64,000 bases of DNA from a bacterium (GTDB lineage: Bacteria; SAR324; XYD2-FULL-50-16). A program made the translations under genes and the position numbers. How positions within the stretch are numbered: position 1 is the first letter of the stretch; each line of letters opens with the position of its first letter. Below, piece by piece: positions 5,618 through 10,677 of the stretch. The stretch is taken from NCBI GenBank assembly GCA_024275165.1, contig JAJRZQ010000038.1:113649-177648 (forward strand). The letters are read 5' to 3'. Under the pieces are notes generated by a model. It saw only the letters and a list, made by a program, of their open reading frames with translations, did not search any database and was not told the DNA's origin.

Positions 5618-6313
5618 ATGCGTTTCTTTCTTACTCTTTTATTGTTTGCCTTTATCTTATGGCAGCAACCTCTGCTCGCCGCCACCAAGGTTGTCGGTGA
5701 GGTCAAAGGCAGCTATCAAGGGAAGAAAAAAGGGGCTGCCCCAAAGGTGGTGAACGAAAAGACGGTGATTCTTTCTCCGGGTACGGTGCAGCGCGTCAAG
5801 GCGGGAAAGGATCAATTAGAGATCGACTATGATCGGCTGCACCCCACGGGGAAGTTTCCGGAAGTAAAGATTCAGGGGATTCCCTTTAAGCTTGCCAAAA
5901 GAGGCGAAAAGCTCGCTTTTACCTGGAACAAGGCGACTTATGAACTCACCTGGAAAGGAAAGGGCAACCAGGTTCAATTGAGGAGCAGTAACGACTTTGC
6001 CGGCACGCCCAAGCTCTCTACGAGGGATAAAAAAGCAAAACACGCCTTGATCAAATCGGGGCTGGTGGTAAAGACAAAAAGAAAAAACGGGACCATCGCC
6101 AAATTGGAGGTCGTTCAGGTGCGGCGAGCGGGTAAAAAAATGGTCAAGTTTTCCACCAAGACCTTTGCCGATGAAAACAGCCCCGAGTACCAGATGGAAA
6201 ACAACATCATGCCCCCTGAAACCTTTAAGCAATATGAAAAAGGGGTGAACGGCGAGATTTTATTTATCTTTACCAGCAATCGCCAGGGCCAAATCTTTGT
6301 TTATTATCGTTAA
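5618..6313 (+). CDS. Secreted basic protein of unknown function
   Basis: 231 residues from the ATG at 5618, which has an AAGGAG site 4 bases upstream; an in-frame ATG at 5597 overlaps the previous stop but lacks a site. Residues 1-21 form a signal peptide (RFFLTLLLFAFILWQQPLLAA). The mature part is lysine-rich, predicted mostly beta, with no cysteines or motifs I recognise. It directly follows the phosphohexomutase, so co-transcription is likely. Its TAA overlaps the TAA of the convergent RSH gene by four bases. Confidence 0.65.
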   Translation: MRFFLTLLLFAFILWQQPLLAATKVVGEVKGSYQGKKKGAAPKVVNEKTVILSPGTVQRVKAGKDQLEIDYDRLHPTGKFPEVKIQGIPFKLAKRGEKLAFTWNKATYELTWKGKGNQVQLRSSNDFAGTPKLSTRDKKAKHALIKSGLVVKTKRKNGTIAKLEVVQVRRAGKKMVKFSTKTFADENSPEYQMENNIMPPETFKQYEKGVNGEILFIFTSNRQGQIFVYYR

Positions 6314-7713
6314 TGCTGGGGATGCTTGGAAAAATACCTCAAAAGCTCTCGTCTTGCCTTGGGCATTACCACCTGATCCAGCCATTGCAGCTTGGGGTGG
6401 GTGTGTTCCCCTGAAATCACCTGCACCACCATGCCTTCTTCTAAAATTTTATTGCGCGGGTAGCGAATCCCGTTGATCATCCCCCCTAGGGTTTTACAGC
6501 CCAATTCAGTATGGATCATGAAGGCGAAATCCAAGATACTCGCCCCATAGCGCAGCTCAATGACTTTCCCCTTGGGGGTTAAGACCTGAATGGTCTTGTT
6601 TTTGTTGTGGCGAAATACATCTTCGATCCGTACATTATCGTTGGCCACATCAATATAGAGCTGCATGATCTGTTGGAACAGCTCAGAGTGATAAACCCCT
6701 TCGTGGATCAAGGGGATCAAGCCCTTGCGGTTGGCCTTTTGAAATTCCGGAGTGACAATCTGCAACAAAACCTGCTCCCCATGAACCATGACCATGGTGG
6801 TCAGCCCTCGCCAGCCATTGGCCTTGGGATTGCTGATGAAATCGCGGATATTTAAGGGGATGCTGCGCAGTCGGGTGTGGATCTCTCCCAAGGCTTGATA
6901 GCATTGAATCGGTTCCCTGACCTCAATGACGAGGTGATCTAAAATCCGGTCCACCTCTTCTTGATGACGCAAAAGATATTGTTGGGATTTCACAAAAATA
7001 GGGGTCACCGAGAGGGCTAAACCGGGATACAGGCAAGCAGATACCTTGGCGCGGATATTTTCAATCGCCTCAATTCGCTCGTGGTAGAGGTCGCTCAAGG
7101 TTTTTAAAAGCTGATGATAGCGCCTGGGGTAGAGTTTTTTAAAGATGAGCCCGCGGATCTCTTCTTCCAATTCCAAAAGCCCTAACCCATGGGCGACTTC
7201 GCAATAGAGGGTCAGGGTTTCGTTGCAGATTTGCCGTTGTTTGAGGCGTGATAAGGCTTCTAGGTCGGACATGTTGTCGAGGCGATCTAAAAGCTTAATC
7301 AAAATGACCCGAAAATCCACCTTACCCAGTTCAAAAATCTTATAGAGGGTGAGGTTCTTTGAGTTTTTGACCTTGGTCAAGGCTTCGGTTAAGTCGGCCA
7401 CGATGGGGCCAAAGGCGGCGGCAATGTCTTCTTTGGTGTGGGGCGTGTCTTCGATGATATCATGGAGAAGGCTCGTCACAATGGTGGTGGTGTCGAGGTC
7501 GAACTCAATGGCTCGCAGGGCAACGCGAACAGGGTGGATAAAATAGGGGGCGCCATTTTTTCGGGTTTGCCCCTGGTGGGCCTTGCGAGAATATTCAACG
7601 GCCCGCTTGACCAGGGGAAGGTCGATTTTAGAGTTGCCTTGAATTTTTTCAAGCAGATCTTGTAAGGATCGGTCCAGGGCGCTCAGGGGAAGATCGACGG
7701 CAGGCAAAAACAA
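6310..7713 (-). CDS. RSH-type (p)ppGpp hydrolase with degenerate synthetase domain
   Basis: 467 residues, shorter than SpoT/Rel (about 700-740). The HD hydrolase domain is intact: H60, H84-D85 with E88-D89 (LLHDIIEDT), and the LLDRLDNM helix at 141-148 that supplies the second Asp and Asn. The synthetase region is recognisable (CYQALGEIH, then DFISNPKANGWRGL at 291-304), but the YGxRxI segment is missing and the catalytic EVQIRT has become LLQIVT. A TGS domain follows (about 375-437). The helical, zinc-finger and ACT domains are absent. Expected role: degrade (p)ppGpp without making it. Start is TTG at 7713 with GGAGAA seven bases upstream. Confidence 0.8.
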   Translation of the reverse strand: MFLPAVDLPLSALDRSLQDLLEKIQGNSKIDLPLVKRAVEYSRKAHQGQTRKNGAPYFIHPVRVALRAIEFDLDTTTIVTSLLHDIIEDTPHTKEDIAAAFGPIVADLTEALTKVKNSKNLTLYKIFELGKVDFRVILIKLLDRLDNMSDLEALSRLKQRQICNETLTLYCEVAHGLGLLELEEEIRGLIFKKLYPRRYHQLLKTLSDLYHERIEAIENIRAKVSACLYPGLALSVTPIFVKSQQYLLRHQEEVDRILDHLVIEVREPIQCYQALGEIHTRLRSIPLNIRDFISNPKANGWRGLTTMVMVHGEQVLLQIVTPEFQKANRKGLIPLIHEGVYHSELFQQIMQLYIDVANDNVRIEDVFRHNKNKTIQVLTPKGKVIELRYGASILDFAFMIHTELGCKTLGGMINGIRYPRNKILEEGMVVQVISGEHTHPKLQWLDQVVMPKARRELLRYFSKHPQH

Positions 7714-7927: not shown

Positions 7928-8467
7928 TTAGAATTGAGCGCAAAGGTCATCGCTTAGCGCAGGTACGATTTTATAATATCCTTTGCTTTTCCCCGCTGTT
8001 TTCAGCAGAGCATAAAAATCACAAAGATTCAAGCGTCTGGCTCGAACCTCATGATAAAATCGATTGGTTTTGGGAAGCTGGTTTTGGGCGCTTTGCAAAA
8101 TTTGGATCGCGTTTTGCGCTTGGCGCGCTGCCAAAGAGAGGTAATTTGGCTCATTCGAGCGCTTGAAGCTGGCAAAATAAATCTTTGCCCAGCCCTGGGC
8201 ATTGGAAGCGCGAGAGAGGTATTGGGTAAAGGGAAAGTTGGAGGGTTGAGGCCGCGCCTGCGGGCGGGATTGCCGGGGTTGAGGGGTTGTTTGCGGTCGC
8301 GCTTGTGGGTTTGTTGGTGGCGCCTGCGGCCTGGTTTGGCTCTGGGGGCGTGTTTGACTCGGGGTTGGCGCGGGCCGAGTGGTGGAGGGGGGGGCCGGCG
8401 CGGTGGTTTGTTGGGCAAATAAACTAAAGGGAAGGGCGTAGAATGCGAAGATGAAGAGCAGGGGCAT
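7928..8467 (-). CDS. Exported proline/arginine/glutamine-rich protein
   Basis: 179 residues from the ATG at 8467. Residues 1-19 are a signal peptide (LLFIFAFYALPFSLFAQ). Residues 20-80 are low-complexity, built from repeats such as TRPQ, ARPQ and PTNPQ, which look like an extended, positively charged linker. The C-terminal 95 residues (FTQYLSRASNAQGW onward) appear folded and alpha-helical, with LAARQAQNAIQILQSA resembling a TPR-like helix. The start lies one base after the stop of the CNMP/pentapeptide gene, so translation is probably coupled. The linker could span periplasm or peptidoglycan (inference). No family recognised. Confidence 0.6.
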   Translation of the reverse strand: MPLLFIFAFYALPFSLFAQQTTAPAPPSTTRPAPTPSQTRPQSQTRPQAPPTNPQARPQTTPQPRQSRPQARPQPSNFPFTQYLSRASNAQGWAKIYFASFKRSNEPNYLSLAARQAQNAIQILQSAQNQLPKTNRFYHEVRARRLNLCDFYALLKTAGKSKGYYKIVPALSDDLCAQF

Positions 8468-8468
8468 G

Positions 8469-9332
8469 TCAATTTTTTGCGGATTTATTGGGGGGACTAT
8501 CTTTGACCTCGGCAAGTTGGTCGAGCTGGGCACCGGTGAGGTCGGCCCCCATAAAGTTGGCTGATTTTAAGTCGCAATCTTTAAAGGTTACATCGCGAAA
8601 TACGGCACCGGAAAAATCAGCCTCTTGAAAATTACCCTCTTCAAAAACATTATCGGTAATCTGCGAAGCAACAAACTTCGCTTGGGTAAAGTTGGTTTGC
8701 TTTGCCTTCACTCCTTGCAGCTTGGCTCCCACCAGGTTGCAGCCGTGAAAATTGGCGTTGTTCATAAACACTTCGCTTAAATCCACCCCTTTAAAATTGG
8801 CCCCTTCCATGCTGCCGCCCCCTTCGAGCTTTTTTTTCAGCATGTCGCGCACTTGTTTGTTGCCCGTGCGCTCATTTTCTGTCGCGCTTTGGAGTTTGTC
8901 GTTGGTTTCTCGTACCCGGCCCGCTAAGACAACGGAAAAGTTCCGATAGAGCTTAAAGGCCAACAGCACATTTTGTTCACTCAAGATGCCGGCAGAGAGA
9001 CTCAATAAGATGGTGTTGGGTTGGTCTGCCGTGGCGCGGGCCGAGCGGGGGGATTGATCAATCACCCCCATTTCGCCAAAGCAGGCCCCTGGTTGCAGGG
9101 TGACCAAAACTTCTTCTTTCCCTCCGCCGATGGGGCGAGAGATGCGAACCGCGCCGTTGAGGATAATGTACATTTTATCCCCTCTGGTTCCTTCTTTAAA
9201 AATGACCTCGTCTTTTTGGAAGGGCTCGCTTTTGGCGAGTTTGAGCAGGGCTAAAAGCTCGCCGGCCGTGAAGGACTTAAAAAAGTCAACCGAAGACTGA
9301 AGCTTAATGAATAGGGCTTTAGAGAGTTGCAT
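8469..9332 (-). CDS. Cyclic-nucleotide-binding domain fused to pentapeptide repeats
   Basis: 287 residues in two modules. Residues 15-130 are a CRP-type cNMP-binding beta-roll: GxxGDxMYIILNGAVRIS, then the phosphate-binding-cassette-like segment GACFGEMGVIDQSPRSARATA. A charged helical linker (about 135-170) leads to about 90 residues of pentapeptide repeats (A/N-[FL]-x-x units such as ANFKG, VDLSE, ANFHG, ADFSG, ANFMG, ADLTG), a right-handed beta-helix. There is no DNA-binding helix-turn-helix, so this is a ligand-sensing scaffold rather than a CRP regulator. It sits between a 112-residue unknown gene (6 bases) and the RPQ-rich exported protein (1 base). Function unknown. Confidence 0.8.
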   Translation of the reverse strand: MQLSKALFIKLQSSVDFFKSFTAGELLALLKLAKSEPFQKDEVIFKEGTRGDKMYIILNGAVRISRPIGGGKEEVLVTLQPGACFGEMGVIDQSPRSARATADQPNTILLSLSAGILSEQNVLLAFKLYRNFSVVLAGRVRETNDKLQSATENERTGNKQVRDMLKKKLEGGGSMEGANFKGVDLSEVFMNNANFHGCNLVGAKLQGVKAKQTNFTQAKFVASQITDNVFEEGNFQEADFSGAVFRDVTFKDCDLKSANFMGADLTGAQLDQLAEVKDSPPNKSAKN

Positions 9333-9338
9333 AGGGGC

Positions 9339-9677
9339 CTAGGGGACTGGTAGCGAGGCCGTCAGGGAGGAGAGGAGTTTGAGCTCTCTCTGGGAGACAC
9401 AAACCCTGCGATTATAGCGTAAGAGGGGGTTGTATAGAAAAACAAAAAACCCGTCTTCAATGGATTCGATATGGATATCACTCCCGGCGACCAAAGCGGT
9501 TTGGTCTAGATCATCGAGTAGGGAAATGAGTAGTTTGGCGCGCTTGAAGCGGTTGTATTCTCTGGACTTGGCAAGGGTGTAGAAATTTTTGTTCCTGGAA
9601 AGTTTGCCCGAACGAATGCCGAGGATCAGGTTGTGTATTTCCTGAATCTCGCCTGTGGTTTGCTTCTGTTCTGACAT
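9339..9677 (-). CDS. Conserved-looking cytoplasmic protein of unknown function
   Basis: 112 residues, no signal peptide or membrane segment. The N-terminal half is basic and helical (LSRNKNFYTLAKSREYNRFKRA); the C-terminal half has a small beta-rich part (DIHIESIEDGFFVFLYNP). A CGGAG site precedes the ATG at a usable distance. The gene lies 58 bases after pyrB and 6 before the CNMP/pentapeptide gene, so it belongs to that probable operon. I do not recognise it. Confidence 0.65.
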   Translation of the reverse strand: MSEQKQTTGEIQEIHNLILGIRSGKLSRNKNFYTLAKSREYNRFKRAKLLISLLDDLDQTALVAGSDIHIESIEDGFFVFLYNPLLRYNRRVCVSQRELKLLSSLTASLPVP

Positions 9678-9735
9678 TTGTTGGTTGCTCCGAGGACTCG
9701 TTTGGACTCATTATCCAGATTTATACCCCCCTTGT

Positions 9736-10677
9736 CTAGAATTTCTGTTCTAAAGGGGTCTCCTTTTGCAATTGCGGGTGCAGCAAAGAGGTGATGAGGG
9801 CCATGCGTACCCAAACCCCATTGGCGGCTTGTTGAAAATATTTCATTCTCGGGTCGCTGTCGACCTCTTTGTTGATTTCATCCAAGCGGGGCAAGGGGTG
9901 CATGACGATGGCCTGCTCCTTGAGTAAGGGGGTTTTTGTCTTGTCGATGCGGTATTGGTTCAAGGCGTTATTATAGAGGTCCATATCCAAGAAACGCTCT
10001 TTTTGGATGCGGGTCATGTAAACGCAATCAGCGGCTCTTAAGGCGGCATTGAAGTCTTCGACCTCTTCCCAGGGGAGGTTGTGACCGGTTAAGAAGTCTT
10101 TGATGTCTTGGCCCATTCGGCAAATCGAGGGGGAGACAAAAAGAAGCTTGACTTGATAAAAACGGCCCAAGAGATAGCACAGGCTCCGCACGGTGCGCCC
10201 GTAGAGTAAATCACCCACTAAAGCGATGGTCAGGCCGTCGATTTTGCCGAAATTGGCCTGGATGGTATAGAGGTCCAGCAAACTTTGGGTGGGGTGCTGC
10301 CCTGCCCCGTCACCGGCGTTGATGACGGGGACTTGGCTCACCTTGGCGGCTCGTTTGGCCGAGCCGATCTCAAAATGGCGCAAGGCGATGACATCGGCGT
10401 AGCCGGAAAGAACCCGAATCGAATCTTCTAAGGATTCCCCCTTGGAGTGGCTGGAAAACTCCGCCGCTTTTTCCGTACTGATGACATTGCCCCCTAGGCG
10501 GTGCATGGCCGATTCAAAGGAGAGGCGGGTGCGGGTGGAGGGTTCAAAAAAAACGGTGGCCATGATTTTGTTCGGCATGAAATAAGGTCGGGGGTCCAGT
10601 TGCATTTCATCGGCGAGGCGATAAATTTGGTTTAAAAAAGCTAAGGTAAATTGTTGGGATTCAACGATATGGTGCAT
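9736..10677 (-). CDS. pyrB: Aspartate carbamoyltransferase catalytic subunit
   Basis: 313 residues, the normal length. The carbamoyl-phosphate loop FFEPSTRTRLSFESA is at about 47-61, GDGAGQHPTQSLLDL at about 125-140 and HPLPR near 265. These are the diagnostic ATCase motifs. It catalyses the committed step of pyrimidine synthesis, carbamoyl phosphate plus aspartate to carbamoyl-aspartate, in the cytoplasm. No pyrI or pyrC is adjacent; instead three unrelated small genes follow on the same strand. prmA is divergent with 131 bases between the starts. Confidence 0.95.
   Translation of the reverse strand: MHHIVESQQFTLAFLNQIYRLADEMQLDPRPYFMPNKIMATVFFEPSTRTRLSFESAMHRLGGNVISTEKAAEFSSHSKGESLEDSIRVLSGYADVIALRHFEIGSAKRAAKVSQVPVINAGDGAGQHPTQSLLDLYTIQANFGKIDGLTIALVGDLLYGRTVRSLCYLLGRFYQVKLLFVSPSICRMGQDIKDFLTGHNLPWEEVEDFNAALRAADCVYMTRIQKERFLDMDLYNNALNQYRIDKTKTPLLKEQAIVMHPLPRLDEINKEVDSDPRMKYFQQAANGVWVRMALITSLLHPQLQKETPLEQKF

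Follow-up and report, generated by a model that had tools for sequence, protein, structure and literature searches.

The window analyzed here, a 64,000-nucleotide stretch of DNA, comes from a SAR324 (Candidatus Lambdaproteobacteria) genome assembled to 2.69 Mb in 47 contigs and carries, behind pyrB, a gene most likely encoding a cyclic-nucleotide receptor whose output is protein binding. This gene, referred to as gene B, encodes a fusion of a cNMP-binding domain with a pentapeptide beta-helix and lies between gene A, encoding a 112-residue protein, and gene C, encoding an exported protein. Gene neighborhoods suggest that gene B belongs to a signaling assembly at the cell envelope, in which a further protein, C4 (our own label for a membrane TPR-like protein encoded elsewhere in the genome), is a candidate member. 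Families from the genome search are labeled f1 to f4, f1 being the window's own family.

The coordinates of the three genes (Table 1) and their spacing agree with the preliminary description of this DNA: all three are on the minus strand, with 58 bases between pyrB and gene A, 6 between genes A and B, and 1 between genes B and C. An alternative in-frame GTG start for gene C at position 8533, upstream of the ATG, would overlap gene B. Given the sigma-70-like match in the gap between pyrB and gene A, genes A, B, and C could possibly be driven from a promoter of their own, as far as a consensus match can indicate. In f1, gene C has gene B on one side and a SpoT-like gene, conserved at this position in the family, on the other. 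The 467-residue SpoT-like protein has an intact HD motif (HDIIEDT) and a TGS domain, with only marginal similarity to the synthetase domain, and its C-terminal regulatory part is missing, so from its sequence it looks hydrolase-only; we do not claim it as part of the gene A/B/C system.

Table 1. Features of the pyrB-gene A-gene B-gene C region, with positions in the window
Feature	Position	Strand	Basis or remark
pyrB, aspartate carbamoyltransferase catalytic chain	9736-10677	-	TIGR00670 above cut-off; conserved upstream neighbor
Promoter-like match TAGACA-17-GATAAT, pyrB/gene A gap	9710-9738	-	sigma-70-like consensus match alone, 10/12 positions
Gene A, 112 aa	9339-9677	-	ORF; invariant SRN motif, R46, R90, E98
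Gene B, 287 aa	8469-9332	-	cNMP-binding domain followed by a long helix and a pentapeptide beta-helix
Phosphate-binding cassette of gene B, FGEMGVIDQSPRSA, residues 85-98	9039-9080	-	aligns with PKA/PKG/CRP cassettes
Long C-helix of gene B, residues 122-170	8823-8969	-	carries the CRP-like motif LAxRLRxTNxKL; probably the dimer helix
Pentapeptide repeats of gene B, about 98 residues, about five coils	8520-8813	-	Pfam match
Gene C, exported, 179 aa	7928-8467 (ATG at 8467)	-	hydrophobic signal, RPQ linker, conserved C-terminal domain
SpoT-like protein (HD, degenerate synthetase, TGS)	6310-7713	-	downstream neighbor in f1 only

Both halves of gene B matched Pfam families well above the cut-offs, i.e., cNMP_binding (PF00027; E 1.8e-19, residues 37-114, 70 bits against 27.5) and Pentapeptide (PF00805; E 7.6e-21, about residues 173-271, 73.8 bits against 20.2), and neither Pfam, NCBIfam, nor the AlphaFold model revealed a DNA-binding family or a helix-turn-helix, bearing out the architecture first described. 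An AlphaFold model built on five sequences shows a beta-roll, a single helix spanning residues 122-170, and a beta-helix predicted with confidence (pLDDT about 80-92), with the relative placing of the two halves uncertain (pTM 0.39). The best Foldseek matches of the gene B model were CRP proteins, and the sensor half resembles CRP, PKA, and PKG structures by sequence as well. Among orthologues, an N-terminal MQLxKEIF and the C-helix motif are conserved, while E87 (the ribose Glu), R96 (the phosphate Arg), and S97 of the cassette are invariant in the 14 that were aligned; the pocket thus keeps the ligand residues whose loss had been named as grounds for abandoning the sensor reading. The window's own genome has four class III cyclases, and every SAR324 genome has one or more. 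Given the invariant pocket Glu and Arg and a cyclase in every SAR324 genome, gene B likely binds a cyclic nucleotide, a prediction made from residues and gene content; an intact cassette in a cNMP-binding fold need not entail nucleotide binding.

Gene B shares the sensor beta-roll, phosphate-binding cassette, and C-helix motif with CRP/FNR regulators (Thermus CAP, 4ev0; M. tuberculosis CRP, 3d0s), but has a pentapeptide beta-helix where these carry a C-terminal helix-turn-helix. Stand-alone cNMP-binding proteins, such as Mfla_1926 (PDB 3gyd) and the C4-linked SAR324 paralogue described below, have the same sensor and C-helix yet stop after the helix, whereas gene B runs on into the pentapeptide helix. 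HetL, MfpA, and Qnr have the pentapeptide beta-helix in common with gene B; unlike theirs, the helix of gene B is short, fused to a ligand sensor, and far below every functional-subfamily cut-off. Our literature search found no description of a cNMP-binding/pentapeptide fusion, and the passages of PMC7159879 consulted for it treat systems other than this fusion. Among the other cNMP-binding arrangements observed were two stand-alone proteins in tandem, immediately preceding one that has an apparent class III cyclase domain, in an Oscillospiraceae locus (L065, 2314-4758), and, in the f4 genome G018 (L131, 1040-1915), a fusion of a response-regulator receiver with a cNMP-binding domain, which several proteins of about 300 residues in f4 genomes resemble.

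Full-length gene B orthologues, 43-59% identical, were found in 16 SAR324 genomes belonging to two families (8/10 in f1 and 8/10 in f4), with none in f3 genomes and two diverged copies in f2 (G010). In 14/16 genomes gene B adjoins pyrB or sits one gene away, and in 12/16 gene A lies between the two, six genomes of f1 and six of f4 having the order pyrB-A-B; in the f4 genomes G018 and G047, pyrB and gene B are still neighbors with no intervening gene A ORF. The gene order, whose restriction to this one genome would have spoken against a functional unit, therefore recurs in other SAR324 genomes, and its recurrence despite such low gene B identity argues that it is not due to chance. The linkage of gene B to gene C extends to six of eight f1 genomes and, away from pyrB, to the sister family f2. 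The conserved unit in f4 consists only of pyrB, gene A, and gene B, with gene C elsewhere beside C4, and in genus g7 (G007, G009) pyrB, gene A, and gene C stay together while gene B is located elsewhere. The linkages of gene B to gene A and to gene C are conserved, but the three-gene cluster of the preliminary description is not supported as a fixed triplet, given the f4 and g7 arrangements; as to a triplet independent of pyrB, only the gene B-gene C pair of f2 fits, the triplet being pyrB-linked in f1 and f4. The proposed sensing module likewise keeps its pocket residues and conserved linkage, with sensing predicted from those residues, but not a fixed set of three genes. Four f1/f4 genomes without gene B (G001, G005, G039, G040) also lack that pyrB type at the threshold used; since a gap in a metagenome-assembled genome is indistinguishable from true absence there, we did not score these as losses. 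Outside SAR324, no full-length gene B relative was found in plasmids, in a pattern-limited scan of genome contigs, or in the 77 genomes examined from one other phylum, a search that was not exhaustive. The domain types are known ones, and their combination with these neighbors is, within the reach of the searches, restricted to SAR324.

Gene A had no relative in Pfam, NCBIfam, or the PDB, and its profile matched eight f1 and six f4 genomes, with one further, marginal match in f3 (E 0.009). Its AlphaFold model (pLDDT 81.9) has an alpha-alpha-beta-beta-beta-alpha order; fold matches to eL38 and SRP14 (alpha-beta-beta-beta-alpha; Z of at most 4.9 over 54 residues) were too weak and were left out as evidence of function. 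Gene A resembles PyrI in its small size and its tight placement after pyrB, and in some f4 genomes it lies 2 bases from pyrB or overlaps it, so that the two probably form one transcription unit there. We nevertheless rejected PyrI as its identity because gene A has no Pfam match, no sequence similarity to PyrI, and no conserved Cys, and because PyrI_C is absent from all 58 genomes searched.

Gene C matched no Pfam family. Its conserved part is the C-terminal domain of about 90 residues (about 7931-8206) with two invariant Cys, and a profile of this domain was positive in 46 of 52 SAR324 genomes and negative in all six other genomes of the search. The protein is exported, as first described, but the long basic Pro/Gln linker in that description is specific to this genome, the corresponding segment in orthologues being different, short, or absent. 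In f3 the domain is preceded by lipobox-like signals (LTACS, LAACS). The C-terminal domain is class-wide in SAR324, occurring as a probable lipoprotein in lineages other than that of this genome. A weak relative with the motif positions kept (E 5e-5 before being added to the profile) lies in f2 between the two gene B copies, far from pyrB (L100, 8507-10797). Gene C adjoins C4 in all f3 genomes (12/12, tail to tail) and all f4 genomes (8/8, same strand) inspected, and the f3 pair itself adjoins an Era-like GTPase gene (L070-L078, L136).

C4 consists of one or more N-terminal hydrophobic segments, a long acidic linker, and a TPR-like C terminus. In all eight f1 genomes inspected a stand-alone cNMP-binding protein is encoded immediately before it, and in several a NUDIX hydrolase gene follows, the three forming an apparent operon (L122, 1278-3796, and similar loci). 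This stand-alone protein, the closest cNMP-binding paralogue of gene B, is the second-best gene B match in f1 genomes (41-51% identity), and in a tree of cNMP-binding domains its clade sits beside the gene B sensors (support 95/94, to be read with caution regarding long branches). The linkages of gene B to gene C, gene C to C4, and C4 to the gene B paralogue thus form a closed chain of conserved neighborhoods, which is the chief extension of the preliminary description. The chain spans different lineages, with B, C, and C4 together in no single genome and gene B in f4 unlinked to either; we infer it from association, and the complex itself is a proposal. In the window's own genome (C31; L121, 10347-11758), C4 lies behind a stand-alone cNMP-binding protein and is split into two overlapping ORFs by a frameshift or an assembly error, being intact in relatives. 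In f2 (G010; L128, 9841-10521), the upstream neighbor of C4 weakly resembles LpoB/GNA1162-type lipoproteins (E about 0.01), a hint from similarity that C4 may work with envelope lipoproteins.

From these data we infer the ligand binding, dimerization, partner, output, and signaling direction of gene B as follows. Gene B would be a cytosolic, probably dimeric CRP-type receptor in which the pentapeptide beta-helix replaces the DNA-binding part. A cyclic nucleotide, most likely cAMP or cGMP supplied by a class III cyclase of the cell, would bind the intact cassette and re-set the long C-helix, so that the beta-helix is presented or hidden. The beta-helix would in turn bind a protein partner, most likely, judged from gene neighborhoods, within an envelope assembly of membrane-anchored C4 and the gene C protein. 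Gene A may be a small accessory co-made with the receptor, and the co-location with pyrB is a conserved operon for which no functional link is claimed. That a dimeric cyclic-nucleotide receptor acts through its pentapeptide helix on a C4/gene C complex is our best-supported guess at the pathway, held tentatively and at somewhat less than an even chance; a SAR324-specific, envelope-spanning second-messenger assembly running from receptor through beta-helix to C4 and a periplasmic lipoprotein-family partner we put forward with low confidence.

Two rivals to the envelope link remain live. A cyclic-nucleotide-controlled gene B might direct its beta-helix at an enzyme that works on nucleic acids, in the way that MfpA and Qnr target gyrase, or at another cytosolic enzyme, its neighbors being bystanders in a stable housekeeping operon. 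The weak matches of its pentapeptide helix to Qnr and MfpA models (E 1e-5 to 2e-8), its persistence alone in genus g7, and the different downstream operon partners in f1 and f4 are consistent with this, whereas the helix has only about five coils, lacks Qnr-type loops, and falls far short of the subfamily score cut-offs (34 bits against 240 for Qnr, 25 against 360 for MfpA); such a target would also make the B-C-C4 chain a mere coincidence, and we consider it unlikely, though a serious competitor. A less probable reading is that gene A, gene B, or both take the place of PyrI in regulating aspartate carbamoyltransferase, in a cyclic-nucleotide-dependent manner, coupling a second messenger to pyrimidine synthesis. 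It would account for pyrB being the most constant neighbor of gene B (14/16), for the tight or overlapping pyrB/gene A junctions in f4, for the occurrence of this pyrB type only in genomes holding gene B, f2 included, and for the absence of PyrI from every genome. PyrI-free aspartate carbamoyltransferases are common, however, and f2 has pyrB and gene B unlinked with no gene A, which is also missing from G018 and G047 and has neither conserved Cys nor PyrI similarity; moreover, the phylogenetic profiles are confounded by common ancestry and incomplete metagenome-assembled genomes.

An anti-phage effector role of the Pycsar kind appears very improbable. The PADLOC PycTIR (E 4e-9) and PycC (E 1e-4) models do weakly match the cNMP-binding part, but the match is confined to the common sensor domain, with the TIR or membrane effector part absent; no cyclase gene was present among the neighbors examined, and gene B is stably conserved beside pyrB across two families.

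The outputs of known bacterial cyclic-nucleotide receptors are mostly DNA-binding, kinase-like, channel, or enzyme domains. A conserved receptor with a pentapeptide beta-helix as its output, if real, would represent a different type of output and one way of controlling a pentapeptide protein. The envelope-spanning assembly, if true, would be constructed from three as yet undescribed families, those of gene A, gene C, and C4. For SAR324, a largely uncultured lineage, the neighborhood chain offers a common, testable context for three of its protein families.
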